From assembly GCF_016406125.1 (NCBI RefSeq), contig NZ_CP066339.1, positions 2,790,001-2,854,000 of the forward strand: a stretch of 64,000 bases of DNA, written 5' to 3'. The notes under the pieces were generated by a model, which saw only the letters and a list, made by a program, of their open reading frames with translations, did not search any database and had not been told where the DNA came from. This document shows positions 14,351-20,840 of the stretch, piece by piece (position 1 is the stretch's first letter; every line of letters begins with the position of its first letter). This DNA is from Alicyclobacillus sp. SO9. GTDB lineage: Bacteria > Bacillota > Bacilli > Alicyclobacillales > Alicyclobacillaceae. Position numbers and translations under genes: made by a program.

Positions 14351-14521
14351 TTAGCTTTGTCCGTCTTCTTGTGCCTCCGTGATGTCTTTTAGAGAACGTT
14401 CCACTGACAGCAGTTCCTTTGTCATGCGATTTTGCCGTCTAATCAGTGATACGACATAAAAGAGAATACCAAACCAGACAACAGCAGCTACAGCCCACAG
14501 GAACCCAAGTTGACCTGTCAT
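14351..14521 (-). CDS. ccmD: CcmD-like small membrane protein
   Basis: A 56-residue frame, MTGQLGFLWAVAAVVWFGIL at its start, with one transmembrane helix (about 6-26), a basic stretch RRQNRMTK, then an acidic helical tail. This is the shape of CcmD, which helps release holo-CcmE from the CcmABC complex. Its ATG overlaps the ccmC stop (ATGA), so translation is coupled. Call rests on size, topology and position after ccmC. Confidence 0.75.
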   Translation of the reverse strand: MTGQLGFLWAVAAVVWFGILFYVVSLIRRQNRMTKELLSVERSLKDITEAQEDGQS

Positions 14522-15225
14522 TTCACAACCCCCTGACTTCGTCTTGCACGAAGTGATTGCATTTTGATTTGCAACTGCACTAGCCTGGTTCTTGATGTTT
14601 CAAGCCGAACACGCAGCATTAGAAGAACGATATAAATCAGCAAAAATGTTATAAAACCAAACAGTAACGTCAACACCATCGAAGGGGGCATGTTAAATCC
14701 CTGAGCTGTGATGACCTGAGGATGGATAGAGCGCCACAAAGTTACTGACAGATGAATGATGGGAACATCTGCAAATGCAATGATTCCAAAGACTGCGCTG
14801 ATACGTGCCCGTCTGACGGCGCCCGTGATGGTTCCGCGCAATAACAAGTAAGCAATGTACAGGAACCACAAGATAAGCGTTGTGGTCAACCGCGGATCCC
14901 ATGTCCACCACGTATTCCAAATCGGTTTTGCCCAGAGCGATCCCGTAATCAATGTTATCGTCGTAAACACGACCCCGATTTCAGCAGACGAGACTGAGAT
15001 TCTGTCGTAACGCAACTTTCGTGATACGAGATACGCAATCGAGAAGACCAGCGTTACAAAGAATGCCAAAAAGGCAATCCAAGCACTGGATACGTGAAAA
15101 TACATAATTCGAACCAAATTCCCCATTTGAGCTTCTGGCGGCGACCAGATTAACGCCAGGTACAGATTAACCCATCCCATGACGGCGGTAAGACCAATGA
15201 GCCACCACATTTTCTTCCCTGTCAT
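14518..15225 (-). CDS. ccmC: Heme handling protein CcmC
   Basis: Six-helix membrane protein (235 residues) of cytochrome c maturation System I that presents heme to CcmE. It carries the tryptophan-rich WWD domain (NTWWTWDPRLTTTLILWF, about 104-121) and the two flanking axial histidines (His44 in MYFHVSS, His158 in VPIIHLSV). It lies 3 bp after ccmB and overlaps ccmD. Identification is secure. Confidence 0.93.
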   Translation of the reverse strand: MTGKKMWWLIGLTAVMGWVNLYLALIWSPPEAQMGNLVRIMYFHVSSAWIAFLAFFVTLVFSIAYLVSRKLRYDRISVSSAEIGVVFTTITLITGSLWAKPIWNTWWTWDPRLTTTLILWFLYIAYLLLRGTITGAVRRARISAVFGIIAFADVPIIHLSVTLWRSIHPQVITAQGFNMPPSMVLTLLFGFITFLLIYIVLLMLRVRLETSRTRLVQLQIKMQSLRARRSQGVVK

Positions 15226-15228
15226 TCC

Positions 15229-15915
15229 CTACACCTCCAACAACAGTTCATACAAAAGCCACGGTAATACCGCAAAAACTACAATATAGGCGATTAGAAT
15301 ATCCATCCACACAAGCGACATGGTCTGATGAGCAGAAAGTGTCATAACGGTAAGATGAATAAGTGCCAAAAACAATGGTATGGTTAACGGAAACAGCAGC
15401 AAGGGTACAATTAAGTCACGCATTGAGCTGGCTGTCGCCAGCGTCGCTACAAAGGTGGCGATTCCTGTAAGACCAATTGCACCGCCTATTAGAACCAGCA
15501 CGAAATAGACAAAGTGTGGTGGAAACGGTTGATTCAAAATGATGAAATACGCGACAGTTAAGGCCGACTCCGTGATGAACACAAGCGCACTTGAACTGGT
15601 CCACTTGGCATAATAAATGAGGCTGCGGTCCAGTGGAGCCATCCATAACCCTCTCCACGCATCGAATTCGTTGTCTCTGTCATCTCGTCTGTTCAAGCCC
15701 AGAGAAACCGTAAAAAAGATTGCCATCCAAAGTAACCCTGAACTCCAAAACACAGGAATGCGGCTGGCAGCGTTCAATGCGATTCCCATAATGAATACCA
15801 TTAATACACCAAAAGCAGCGCTGCTGACGATAAACTGCTTTCCGCGAATCTCAAGAACAATGTCTTTTCGCACTAGACTTACATAGCTGCCTAAGTAACT
15901 CTGAAATACACTCAT
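15229..15915 (-). CDS. ccmB: Heme exporter permease CcmB
   Basis: 228 residues with six hydrophobic segments; a polar cytoplasmic N-terminus (LVRKDIVLEIRGK) precedes the first helix, as in CcmB permeases that pair with the CcmA ATPase. The DREN-like RDDRDNEFDAW loop is typical. It overlaps the end of ccmA by 4 nt. The function follows the E. coli CcmABCD complex. Confidence 0.9.
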   Translation of the reverse strand: MSVFQSYLGSYVSLVRKDIVLEIRGKQFIVSSAAFGVLMVFIMGIALNAASRIPVFWSSGLLWMAIFFTVSLGLNRRDDRDNEFDAWRGLWMAPLDRSLIYYAKWTSSSALVFITESALTVAYFIILNQPFPPHFVYFVLVLIGGAIGLTGIATFVATLATASSMRDLIVPLLLFPLTIPLFLALIHLTVMTLSAHQTMSLVWMDILIAYIVVFAVLPWLLYELLLEV

Positions 15916-16535
15916 GTCTGCACCAGCCTTCCGTAACGCAGCGTGAGCCGAATATCCGTTTCACTTGCTTCCGAGGTACTGTGTGTTACATGAAAGAGCG
16001 TGGTACCCTTATCCTTCAATTCTTTCAGCAACTTTCCGAACAGTAAAACAGAGTCCGTGTCCAATCCATCGAACGGCTCATCCAGCAGCAGCAGTCTCGG
16101 TTGGTGGAGCATTGCCCTGGCCAATGCGACTCGTTGTCTCATTCCCTTGGAAAAATGTCTGACTCGTTCTTCTGCAGCATGATGCAAATTGACTCTCTCC
16201 AGCCACTCAGATGCGAGTGTTTTCGGATTCCGGCAACGGTACAAACGAGCGAACAATTCCAGGTTTTCCACAGCGGTCAGGTCTGCATACACCATTGGCT
16301 GCTGAAACACTGCCCCAATATGCCGCCTGTCTCGCACACTAAGGCGATGATTCTCCCACATGACCATGCCCTTTGTCGGGCGGGAGATTCCTGCCATTAT
16401 TTCAAGCAGCGTCGTCTTTCCGCTTCCGTTTGGCGCTGTCAAAGCATAATGTACCCCAGGTTCCAAGGACAGTGAGACCTCTTCCAAAATCGGGCGATAA
16501 TCAAAGACTTTTCCGACATTCTCTAGCATTAACAT
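15912..16535 (-). CDS. ccmA: Cytochrome c biogenesis ATP-binding protein CcmA
   Basis: ABC ATPase (207 residues) with Walker A APNGSGKTT (34-42), signature HFSKGMRQRVALARAM, Walker B LLLLDEPFDGLD and switch His in FHVTHSTSE. It drives release of holo-CcmE from CcmC/D. It directly abuts the preceding unknown membrane gene and overlaps ccmB. Confidence 0.92.
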   Translation of the reverse strand: MLMLENVGKVFDYRPILEEVSLSLEPGVHYALTAPNGSGKTTLLEIMAGISRPTKGMVMWENHRLSVRDRRHIGAVFQQPMVYADLTAVENLELFARLYRCRNPKTLASEWLERVNLHHAAEERVRHFSKGMRQRVALARAMLHQPRLLLLDEPFDGLDTDSVLLFGKLLKELKDKGTTLFHVTHSTSEASETDIRLTLRYGRLVQT

Positions 16536-17438
16536 TTACGACGGGGCTCCTGACTTTAATGCAAGAATCCTCTGTTTCAAATACTCACGCCGCGTTCGAT
16601 ATTCTGCTTCCCCCAGGGTTCCATTCTCGTGTTGCAGTTCAAGGTTCTCCCACGAACGAAGGAGTGCTTCCTCCTTGGTAACCGGAACGCGTGCAGCCCT
16701 TCCCCACTGTGTGGCCCGAATACTGATGAGTCCAACAACCAGAACGAGGGCAGCGACAAGCAAATTTCCTACCGCTTGCAGCGTGTTAAGAAAGTTATCC
16801 GGCCTTGTCCCAATGACCGGCAGATTCTGCACGGTAGAATTGACGGCGGCGGAGGGAAGCATCTGTACGCTCAGCGTCCAACTGTCGCCAGCAGGAATGC
16901 TGGGCCGCGTAAAGACCCGGAATTCCACGCCTTTTACTGTCATTGTCTGTGTGTGCGTCATGAGTCCCTGGGCTGAGAGAGAAGCATGTTGGCCCAGAGG
17001 GAGGTAGACATGGGCAGTATACACAGGATAGCTGGTCTGCAAGGTAAATTGCACATCGCCCTGGGAAGTCAGCGGAATGCTGTATGACTCCACTACGTTT
17101 GTCGAGCCGCCTGGAGACACATGCGGAAGCTTGACCGTATGCGCACCACTCGCAATCGAAACAGGTTTGCTCGCAGCCGTGACGTGAACATTTTGTGCTG
17201 TCTTTGGAAGCTTCAGGACAACGGGTCCTGTCAGAGACGACGGCGCTTTAATCTGTAACTTGTTGACGATGTTGATTGTTTTATGACTTGAATCCGGTAC
17301 TACGAAAACATCTTCCTGTGTAACGGCAGTCCCGGTCGTTGCAGCCTGTACCACCAGCGACATCGGCGACATTGTCAAAACAGCACTGACGACGAGACCC
17401 AACACGGTACGGGCGCGGTTGCCATGAAATCTTATCAT
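16536..17438 (-). CDS. Ccm-associated exported membrane protein of unknown function
   Basis: 300 residues: a signal peptide (cut near VVQAATT), an extracytoplasmic beta-rich domain of about 190 residues, one transmembrane helix (about 230-252) and a cytoplasmic tail ending in a short SHOCT-like helical hairpin (ENLELQHENGTLGEAEYRTR). It sits between ccmF and ccmA with ATGA coupling to ccmF, so it is almost certainly part of the maturation machine. A similar tail ends CcmF. I do not recognise it as CcmG, CcmH or CcmI: there is no CXXC and no thioredoxin or TPR pattern. Confidence 0.75.
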   Translation of the reverse strand: MIRFHGNRARTVLGLVVSAVLTMSPMSLVVQAATTGTAVTQEDVFVVPDSSHKTINIVNKLQIKAPSSLTGPVVLKLPKTAQNVHVTAASKPVSIASGAHTVKLPHVSPGGSTNVVESYSIPLTSQGDVQFTLQTSYPVYTAHVYLPLGQHASLSAQGLMTHTQTMTVKGVEFRVFTRPSIPAGDSWTLSVQMLPSAAVNSTVQNLPVIGTRPDNFLNTLQAVGNLLVAALVLVVGLISIRATQWGRAARVPVTKEEALLRSWENLELQHENGTLGEAEYRTRREYLKQRILALKSGAPS

Positions 17439-19657
17439 TTACGTTCCCTCCCGTCCTCGCGCCCTGACCGATGAGCGCCCGATTGCAACTTGGCCTCCAA
17501 ACCAAGTTCATCAAGGATACGGTTACGCAGGTCCTGCCGGTGCTCCTCCAGCGCCCGCAGAGTTTCCGATACCTGCTGCCGGTTGATTTCGTACGTGCCA
17601 GAATCGATTTTATTCATCCTGTAGTCGTACTCTAAATCGGCCAATTCCTGATACAGCCTCTCGGTCTCGTTCTGTACGGGACCGTCTGCCAAGTCTCGTC
17701 CTTGTTTGCGAAATGCCTCTGGCCACAAGCTGACCAAGGTACCAATGACAAACAAATAGCCCCCGTACCAGATAAACTCAACCAGCGGATTTACATGAAT
17801 ATCAAAAACCGCTTGTGAGTTCGGGGCCGTGCCTAACATCACAACATACAGGTCCTGCAAAGGTCTGCTGAATAGGGCGATATTTGTACTGGGCTCCTGT
17901 CCATTTGCATAAAACGTTGCTGCGGGCTGCAGGACACCGAGGGTTCTATGGCCGCTGTGAACAACCAAGTTCGCATACATTCTGCTGTTCTGGTTGAGTT
18001 TCGTCACACCCATTCCTTCAAATGTCAAACGATAGTTTCCAATTGTGGCACTCTGTCCGCGCGAGAGTTGTTGCTGAACATTGATGTGATAAGCCCCCGA
18101 TCCCGCTATGCCGACAGCCATCAAAGCAATCCCAAAATGGACAATGTAGCCGCCGTAACGGCGGCGGTTCTTACCGAGAAGACGCCATAACGAGAGTCCC
18201 CATGACTCGCCTGTCAAGCGAACACGAGCCCTGACAGATTTATAAAATTCTATAAACACTGTCAAAGCAACAAATACGGCCCCAACAATTGACAGCGTAC
18301 CGAGCCAAGATTGTCTGTGATAGAACGCATTCAACGCTGCCGACGCACTTGCACCGAGAATGATGGACACCAGCAATGGATAAATGACGGAGCGCACAAT
18401 GCTCTTCATGGTCCCCCGTCGCCACGCAACAACAGGACCAATTCCCATCAGGATTAAGATAACAATACCAAGGGGCAGAGCCACCTCGTTGTAGAACGGA
18501 GCTGAAACCATTAACTTGTTTCCTGTCAATGCCTCTGACAGGACCGGGAACAGAGTCCCCCAGAACACTGCAAAAGTAATGCCGAGAAACAAGAGATTGT
18601 TCAGCATAAACCCAGATTCCTTTGACACTACTGCTTCAAATTTACGATCGGCCTTAAGAACGGGCCATCTTAACACAATTAGGACCAACGTACCGATTGT
18701 GAAGACTGTCAAATATACGCCAAAGTAGCTTCCCATGGGACCATTGGCAAAGGCATGGATACTCCACAGAACGCCGCTTCTCGTAAGGAACGTTCCAAGA
18801 ATCGTCAAAAGAAATGTAAGGGACACAAGAATAATATTCCAACCTTTTAGCATTCCCTTCTTTTCCTGCACAATACCGGAATGCAAAAAAGCTGTAGCCG
18901 TCAACCAGGGCAGGAGCGACGCGTTTTCAACGGGATCCCAAGCCCAGTAGCCTCCCCAGCCCAGTTCCTCGTAGGACCAGTGGGCTCCATAGATAATTCC
19001 GATACTCAGAAAAAGCCATGAAATCAGAGTCCAACGACGAGTTACACGAAGCCACGTCGCATCTGTCTTTTTCAACACAAGGCCCGCCATCGCATATGCA
19101 AACGGGACTGCAAAACCGATGTAACCCAAATACACATTGACCGGGTGCACCGTCATGCCTGGATTTTGAAGCAATGGATTGAGCCCGCTGGCGGGTTGCA
19201 AAGCTGCGGTATGAACAAATGGATTCGCAGCGAAATTCAAGACAGTGACATAAAACCCAGAAATCAGCGTCATGATGAACGACACAATAGGCAGCATTCG
19301 GCGGCTGTCTTGATGTTTACTAAAAGTAACAATTGTTCCGTACAACGTGAGAATAAGTGCCCAGAACAAGAGGGAGCCTTGGTTTCCTCCCCAAAATGCG
19401 GCGATTTTATACACCAATGGCAAACTGCGGCTCGTGTACTCAGCCACGTAGACATAATGAAAGTTTTCTGACAACAGCAGTGACAGCAACGAAGTCGCCG
19501 CAACAAAAGCCAAACAGAACTGTATTAACATTAGAATACGGCTCCATTTCAACGTGTCGGCCGACTTGCGGCGAAAGTTAACGAGATAAATGACAATTGA
19601 CGCTGCTATAAAAACAAACAGCACGCGGAGCGCTGCCTGCCCAATCCAACCTACCAA
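17435..19657 (-). CDS. ccmF: Cytochrome c heme lyase subunit CcmF with C-terminal SHOCT-like extension
   Basis: 740-residue polytopic protein that joins heme from CcmE to apocytochrome c. The WWD motif GWGGYWAWDPVENASLLPW is at 233-251, and the flanking conserved segments (AFWGGNQGSLLFWALI; HPVNVYLGYIGFAVPFA; LTRSGVLWSIHAFA) are present. After the last helix (near 640) it continues for about 80 charged residues with a helical hairpin (YQELADLEYDYRMNKIDSG) like the tail of the next gene's product. TTG start 7 nt after AGGAGG. Confidence 0.92.
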   Translation of the reverse strand: MVGWIGQAALRVLFVFIAASIVIYLVNFRRKSADTLKWSRILMLIQFCLAFVAATSLLSLLLSENFHYVYVAEYTSRSLPLVYKIAAFWGGNQGSLLFWALILTLYGTIVTFSKHQDSRRMLPIVSFIMTLISGFYVTVLNFAANPFVHTAALQPASGLNPLLQNPGMTVHPVNVYLGYIGFAVPFAYAMAGLVLKKTDATWLRVTRRWTLISWLFLSIGIIYGAHWSYEELGWGGYWAWDPVENASLLPWLTATAFLHSGIVQEKKGMLKGWNIILVSLTFLLTILGTFLTRSGVLWSIHAFANGPMGSYFGVYLTVFTIGTLVLIVLRWPVLKADRKFEAVVSKESGFMLNNLLFLGITFAVFWGTLFPVLSEALTGNKLMVSAPFYNEVALPLGIVILILMGIGPVVAWRRGTMKSIVRSVIYPLLVSIILGASASAALNAFYHRQSWLGTLSIVGAVFVALTVFIEFYKSVRARVRLTGESWGLSLWRLLGKNRRRYGGYIVHFGIALMAVGIAGSGAYHINVQQQLSRGQSATIGNYRLTFEGMGVTKLNQNSRMYANLVVHSGHRTLGVLQPAATFYANGQEPSTNIALFSRPLQDLYVVMLGTAPNSQAVFDIHVNPLVEFIWYGGYLFVIGTLVSLWPEAFRKQGRDLADGPVQNETERLYQELADLEYDYRMNKIDSGTYEINRQQVSETLRALEEHRQDLRNRILDELGLEAKLQSGAHRSGREDGRERK

Positions 19658-19717: not shown

Positions 19718-20152
19718 TTACTGTTTCACGGTCGGACTTGCCTTGTACGTTTTCGTTTGCCCCTTCGCCTTGTATTTGGACGGGCATTTTATCAATAATT
19801 TAGAGGCCTCAAATTGACCGTTCTTGCCCATGGTCCCCGACACGATAACCGGCCAATTATTAGAAAAGTCATCGGGTTTAGCACCGTGAAACGTTACGGG
19901 AATCGTATTATTGCTGGATTTATCCTTCATCGTGAAGGTCAATAGGCTTTTTGCGGGAAGCCAGTGAACCGACGAGCCCACAATTTCTCCGCTCACCGTA
20001 GTTTTCTGGCCAATTGCCTGCCTGCCTTCTGTCGTCAACTGGTGAACTGTCACGTAGTAGCTGGACGCATGTGTCACAGCCGTACGGATGAGTACTCCAA
20101 TCACTGCTACCACCAGAATGAGAGCAGTCGTCAACTTCCAACGCGTCGCCAT
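19718..20152 (-). CDS. ccmE: Heme chaperone CcmE, Cys-type (CXXXY) variant
   Basis: 144 residues: one N-terminal transmembrane helix (6-24), then an OB-fold domain. E. coli-type CcmE binds heme covalently through His in HXXXY; here the aligned motif is CPSKY (Cys123, Tyr127), the variant known from archaea and Desulfovibrio-like bacteria. ATG at 20152 follows GGAGGG by 7 nt. It precedes ccmF by 60 bp. The family call is firm; heme attachment to Cys123 is inferred from the variant family. Confidence 0.9.
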   Translation of the reverse strand: MATRWKLTTALILVVAVIGVLIRTAVTHASSYYVTVHQLTTEGRQAIGQKTTVSGEIVGSSVHWLPAKSLLTFTMKDKSSNNTIPVTFHGAKPDDFSNNWPVIVSGTMGKNGQFEASKLLIKCPSKYKAKGQTKTYKASPTVKQ

Positions 20153-20235
20153 TGTTATTCCCTCCACCAAGCGTTATTCACGGGCTTACAGCCAACCGCC
20201 AAAATTAACCTTTCAAGACAGCATCTATATTAAAT

Positions 20236-20263
20236 GATGACCTATGAACGATAACCTATGAAC
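20236..20263. repeat. Two tandem 14-bp units at the 3' end of the ccmH-like gene
   Basis: GATGACCTATGAAC and GATAACCTATGAAC lie side by side between the ccmH-like gene and ccmE, the second reaching the first base of the stop codon. It is one of several short intergenic duplications in this window. Confidence 0.8.
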
Positions 20264-20826
20264 TATAGATAGTCTCGCAGAGTTTTCTCTATGGTTGCGT
20301 CCAAATGTGTAGACTTGTGATGATTTACGGTTCCAGTACTCGGAAGACTCTTCTTGTCCGAATTCCCTGCTGTGACGGAAACCGCCATCGTATCGGCGCC
20401 CACAGTTGGCCTTGCATTTCGTAAAAAATAGATAGCGAGACCAGTCAGACCGAGAATCAAAGCAGCTATAGGTATTGTCCAGACTAAACCGCCAAATCCT
20501 CGTCCAGACGGTGCAGCCAGAACCTGATTTCCGTACTCATGTACCATTTCAGATAAGATTTGTTGACGATGTTGCCCCTTGAGCAAATCTGCTTGAATCT
20601 CATACCGCATGTGCTGAGCTACAGTCTCCGGAGAAGTAGCTACCGTCATAGTGTCCTGCTCGCTCGGTACCCGCAGTTGTGCAGCAATGGCTAAGACCTC
20701 TTGCTGCAAGTTCTTTTGCGTTGAGTGTCGATGGACACTGTACCACACGGCACCAGTGGTTGTGACCAAAGTGACTAACACAATACCAGCAATCCACAGA
20801 CGCATCTTTCCGCGTTTTTGGGCCAC
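20263..20826 (-). CDS. CcmH/CycL-family protein lacking the CXXC active site
   Basis: 187 residues: an N-terminal membrane helix (9-27), the CcmH three-helix domain, a second helix (about 117-137) and a polar tail. Its core aligns with CcmH (LR-P..; AQHMRYEIQADLLKGQHRQQILSEM; HEYGNQVLAAP, then a Gly-rich step into the membrane helix). In CcmH this begins LRCPxC; here it is LRVPSE (Val53, Glu56), so both redox cysteines are gone. The frame opens with ATG 20832, but GTG 20826 has the better spacing from AGGGGG. First gene of the ccm operon. Confidence 0.8.
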   Translation of the reverse strand: MAQKRGKMRLWIAGIVLVTLVTTTGAVWYSVHRHSTQKNLQQEVLAIAAQLRVPSEQDTMTVATSPETVAQHMRYEIQADLLKGQHRQQILSEMVHEYGNQVLAAPSGRGFGGLVWTIPIAALILGLTGLAIYFLRNARPTVGADTMAVSVTAGNSDKKSLPSTGTVNHHKSTHLDATIEKTLRDYL

Positions 20827-20840
20827 ATGCATTCCCCCTA

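Follow-up and report, generated by a model that had tools for sequence, protein, structure and literature searches.

In cytochrome c maturation System I, the cysteines of CcmH are usually assigned a role in the thiol chemistry of the apocytochrome (PMC8975832, PMC10746174, PMC12285233). Published schemes centre on these cysteines, and an old question about System I is whether the need for CcmH stems from its thiols or from the contacts that it makes with CcmF and the apocytochrome. The variant denoted System I* has a Cys-type CcmE, in which HXXXY is replaced by CXXXY (Allen 2006, Goddard 2010; review PMC3601427). According to the relevant passages of this 2011 review (PMC3601427), System I* was originally defined by the lack of CcmH, the definition was later relaxed, and about a third of the bacteria with a Cys-type CcmE have CcmH, whose cysteines these passages leave undescribed; Allen 2006, Goddard 2010 and Verissimo 2017 are cited here as presented in PMC3601427, PMC9084895 and PMC12285233. 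In the limited set of publications that we searched, no description of a cysteine-free CcmH was found.

Here we analyze a stretch of 64,000 nucleotides from the genome of Alicyclobacillus sp. SO9 (hereafter, the window), which contains a ccm operon with a ccmH homologue that lacks both redox cysteines.

Results

The ccm operon of the window

On the minus strand of the window, the genes follow in the order ccmH-E-F-(I-like)-A-B-C, with ccmH in the first position (Table 1), and no ccmG was found in this operon. The ATG at 20832 gives a ccmH product of 189 amino acids; the GTG at 20826, which is better spaced from the upstream AGGGGG, is an equally possible start. The sequence-only reading of this DNA had placed the gene at 20263-20826; these positions are correct, with the gene on the minus strand, and their end corresponds to the GTG start. 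The protein scores 64.6 bits against the Pfam CcmH family (PF03918), for which the cut-off is 25, contains zero cysteines, and is encoded by the only ccmH copy in the 5.29 Mb host genome. Assignment to NrfF was rejected given the NCBIfam TIGR03147 score of 46.3 bits, far below the cut-off of 159.2, and a setting without nrfA. At the cytoplasmic C-terminus (window 20263-20300, minus strand), the protein has TLRDYL; among the window protein and its relatives, the prevalent form is RL[RK][DE][YF]L (e.g. RLRDYL).

Table 1. Features of the ccm operon, in window coordinates
Feature	Position	Strand	Evidence
ccmH homologue without cysteines	20263..20832	minus	ORF; Pfam PF03918 64.6 bits; AlphaFold model with matches to 2HL7/2KW0
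Three-helix extracytoplasmic domain (helices 42-51, 70-84, 89-100)	20533..20709	minus	AlphaFold secondary structure
LRVPSE, aligned with the LRCPxC redox site (V55 = Cys1, E58 = Cys2)	20659..20676	minus	Alignments to 2KW0/2HL7; direct DNA reading
ccmE, Cys-type heme motif CPSKY	19718..20170	minus	Pfam CcmE 81.7 bits; motif
ccmF, 740 aa, C-terminal cytoplasmic extension	17435..19657	minus	Pfam CcmF_C 203 bits; extension compared
Large CcmI-like membrane protein	16536..17438	minus	Weak TIGR03142 match at the C-terminus
ccmA	15912..16535	minus	ABC_tran 112 bits and place in the operon
ccmB	15229..15915	minus	Pfam CcmB 47.8 bits
ccmC	14518..15225	minus	Cytochrom_C_asm 112 bits; WTWDPRLT motif in the sequence

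The architecture of the operon differs between the order that includes Alicyclobacillus and other Bacilli. In the order, ccmH comes first (H-E-F-I-A-B-C), whereas in other Bacilli it follows ccmF and precedes the CcmI-like genes (E-F-H-I'-I-A-B-C). The CcmF ORFs are 736-795 aa long in the order compared to 656-676 aa in other Bacilli. The window CcmF has a C-terminal tail of about 90 aa (LADLEYDYRMNKIDSGTY...) that is similar to the cytoplasmic portion of a small CcmI-like membrane protein. In other Bacilli (L225, L229, L231), this small protein has an ORF of its own directly downstream of ccmH, and, judging from the sequences, the joining of the two looks like a gene fusion.

Given the absence of the catalytic residues, the protein could be thought to have departed from cytochrome c maturation and adopted another task in the membrane. 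We consider this highly improbable because ccmH adjoins ccmE/ccmF in those loci of the order that were read, and because a second ccmH copy is accompanied by another ccmF and by a gene for a cytochrome c. That second copy, also cysteine-free, is found in genome G018 (L243:8871-14498), in the order ccmH-ccmF-I-like-ResA-like-diheme SoxA/TsdA-type cytochrome and without ccmE; this cluster perhaps encodes a dedicated heme ligase for its diheme cytochrome.

Loss of the redox site in a retained fold

The LRCxxC redox site is absent from the window protein, with LRVPSE in register at its place. When a profile built from 14 relatives of the clade was compared with the PDB, E. coli CcmH (2KW0, E 1.8e-10) and P. 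aeruginosa CcmH (2HL7, E 2.6e-10) were matched, with LR[AV]P[GS][DE] aligned to LRCPKC of both structures. The window sequence by itself aligns to these structures weakly, in the same register, and a MAFFT alignment with the collected CcmH proteins also places V55 on Cys1 and E58 on Cys2. Thus, the replacement of LRCPxC by LRVPSE that had been read from the sequence holds under the profile, MAFFT and PDB alignments alike, and misalignment with the active site is excluded.

The AlphaFold model (mean pLDDT 75; about 90 in the three-helix domain) contains the three-helix domain between two long flanking (membrane) helices. Its only strong matches in the PDB are the CcmH domains 2KW0 and 2HL7 (Foldseek probability 1.00, TMt 0.66), and the VIA Z scores of these two structures, 9.8 and 8.4, are well ahead of those that follow. 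Accordingly, the proposal that the CcmH fold, with its three-helix domain and both membrane helices, was kept while both redox cysteines were lost is borne out by the family score, the model and the lack of any cysteine. Because the protein has no cysteine, one would not expect the usual thiol-disulfide oxidoreductase activity from its sequence.

Conservation and selection in the order

Among the 59 genomes of the order, 20 encode a total of 22 CcmH copies, of which 14 belong to the host's family (13 of 41 genomes) and 8 to the second family (7 genomes). Both cysteines are missing from all 22 copies, which share the motif [LI][RH][AVI]P[GSD][DE], and this consistency rules out a sequencing error at LRVPSE or chance. 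In the tree, all 22 group together in a single clade (support 100/99). An additional profile scan of genome contigs with a six-row subset yielded five loci, all from Alicyclobacillaceae, with Alicyclobacillus macrosporangiidus and A. pomorum among the named carriers. The occurrence in several genomes that the sequence-only reading regarded as support for a functional variant thus extends across the order.

In three close pairs, the dN/dS of ccmH is 0.21, 0.08 and 0.08, that is, the cysteine-free CcmH is kept under purifying selection across the order. Together with the first place of ccmH in the operon, these values agree with the earlier judgement that the gene is not mere debris.

The loop that takes the place of the active site is itself conserved: its six positions all rank within the top 26 of the 151 aligned columns, Pro56 is invariant in the 22 copies, Gly is present in 20, and the Cys2 position is occupied by an acidic residue throughout (Asp in 17 copies, Glu in 5). 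Such a pattern would be expected if the loop had acquired a new chemistry, with the acid at the Cys2 position binding or activating the CXXCH thiols or a metal, and thus participated directly in heme attachment; moreover, AF2Complex models set Cys46 of E. coli CcmH beside an apocytochrome cysteine (PMC8975832). However, the conservation of the loop could be structural (a helix cap or a turn), and the cysteine-free CcmH of another Bacilli group (G482, see below) has Thr at the Cys2 position, so that we regard new chemistry as an unlikely explanation.

Relatives without ccmH

Five genomes of the host's family (G016, G021, G022, G023 and G029; loci L018, L020, L021, L025 and L034) encode CcmF and a Cys-type CcmE, whereas ccmH is missing both upstream of ccmE and elsewhere in these genomes; a search with the clade profile gave only weak matches in unrelated frames. 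One of the five, G016, belongs to the same genus as G017, which has kept ccmH. CcmH therefore is dispensable in some backgrounds, and because it is not always needed, its role may be auxiliary.

These absences, one of them in a congener of a genome that retains the gene, together with the long branch of G440, are what one would observe if the function of CcmH had been lost in this lineage and the gene was a relic on its way out. The dN/dS values of 0.08-0.21 speak against such decay, as do the high conservation of the loop at the former active site and the persistence of 22 intact copies, with 28-41% identity to the window protein within the host's family. On balance, a fading relic appears improbable.

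CcmE type and CcmH cysteines across Bacillota

We surveyed CcmE in 398 genomes, all from Bacillota. It is present in 84 of these, and all the motifs read are of the Cys type except for one odd copy, in a genome with two normal copies. CcmH exceeded the cut-off in 39 of the 80 CcmE-bearing genomes searched. Of the 39 genomes with CcmH sampled outside the host's family, 35 encode one or more copies in which both Cys1 and Cys2 are present. The sequence-only reading correctly recognized a CPxxY-type motif (CPSKY) in the CcmE encoded beside ccmH, and further suggested that the redox role of CcmH was dropped once CcmE changed to Cys. The second part does not stand: with Cys-type CcmE near-universal in the Bacillota sample and the CcmH pair kept in 35 of 39 genomes, a Cys-type CcmE is insufficient for the loss of the CcmH cysteines.

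Elsewhere in Bacillota, there are CcmH variants in which Cys1 is gone, and Cys2 is followed by a third cysteine 7-9 residues on (FMAPDFCGKTLAEC, HPPGCTHSMTADYC); such proteins, encoded for example in L081, L077, L078, L224 and L211, are often second copies located away from ccmE, and the two remaining cysteines possibly constitute a shifted redox pair. A few copies retain the third cysteine only. Thus, across Bacillota, several states of the site coexist: Cys1-Cys2, Cys2 with the third cysteine, no cysteine, and no gene.

One more fully cysteine-free CcmH, that of G482, comes from another group of Bacilli. Although this protein falls outside the clade of 22, a single cysteine loss for all 23 copies is not rejected by the AU test (p 0.187), and several independent full losses are not established; the deep branches that bear on the order of losses are weakly supported (50/76).

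Cytochrome clients and thiol reductants

No ResB was found in the host genome, so that the ccm system is the only recognized route of cytochrome c maturation there. The genome encodes cytochromes with CXXCH motifs, among them a cytochrome b/c fusion. It further contains three CcdA-like genes and encodes several proteins of the ResA-like type, some of which carry WCxPC; at 4.62 Mb, a CcdA gene has a ResA-like gene on either side. The ccm clusters of other Bacilli contain or adjoin a ResA-like gene. ResA-like matches were also obtained in all 14 control genomes, including E. coli, whose CcmH has cysteines, and therefore the presence of such proteins is not specific evidence for a takeover of reduction.

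Discussion

Taken together, these results point to a structural or positioning role of the cysteine-free CcmH beside CcmF, as a non-redox subunit of the cytochrome c heme ligase, a reading to which we assign a probability of roughly 0.65. Judged from sequence comparisons, such a role next to CcmF, which the sequence-only reading had already suggested in the form of a putative holdase for apocytochrome or for CcmF, is the best fit to the homology of the protein, its linkage to ccmE/ccmF and the purifying selection on the gene. Most likely, the three-helix domain and the membrane helices still dock on CcmF, and CcmH would help to place the CXXCH segment of the apocytochrome at the heme site. Reduction of CXXCH would instead fall to ResA-like thioredoxins supplied by CcdA. 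The absence of ResB, the presence of ResA and CcdA genes, and the composition of the G018 cluster are compatible with, rather than proof of, such a partition, with ResA as the reductant of the client and CcmH confined to its positioning. In a more specific version, which we put forward with considerable doubt, the conserved acidic, non-thiol loop in the CcmFH ligase of the order would hold or activate the apocytochrome CXXCH without a mixed disulfide.

The order keeps a CcmH without cysteines under selection beside CcmF, which suggests that a part of what CcmH does has never required them. With published schemes built around these residues, a selected cysteine-free CcmH provides a natural separation of the thiol and contact roles.

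With respect to sequence and predicted fold, the window protein is a real, conserved cysteine-free form of the known CcmH family (System I / I*), with the putative function outlined above. It shares with CcmH/CycL/Ccl2 (PF03918; 2HL7, 2KW0) the three-helix domain, the flanking membrane helices, the conserved residues that flank the loop and an operon with ccmF, but differs in having neither cysteine of LRCxxC, nor indeed any cysteine. NrfF, a paralogue of the CcmH N-terminal domain, matches the window protein weakly in NCBIfam. With System I*, the window operon has in common the CPSKY motif of CcmE, which conforms to CXXXY, and the lack of ccmG; however, whereas the Desulfovibrio and archaeal forms are without CcmH in the accounts cited above, the window operon keeps a cysteine-free one. 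The CcmH-like proteins of Geoglobus and Ferroglobus (PMC4600277) likewise lack LRCXXC and adjoin ccmF, but those are cysteine-rich (LX[SN]C[EDH]C), in contrast to the window CcmH, which has none.
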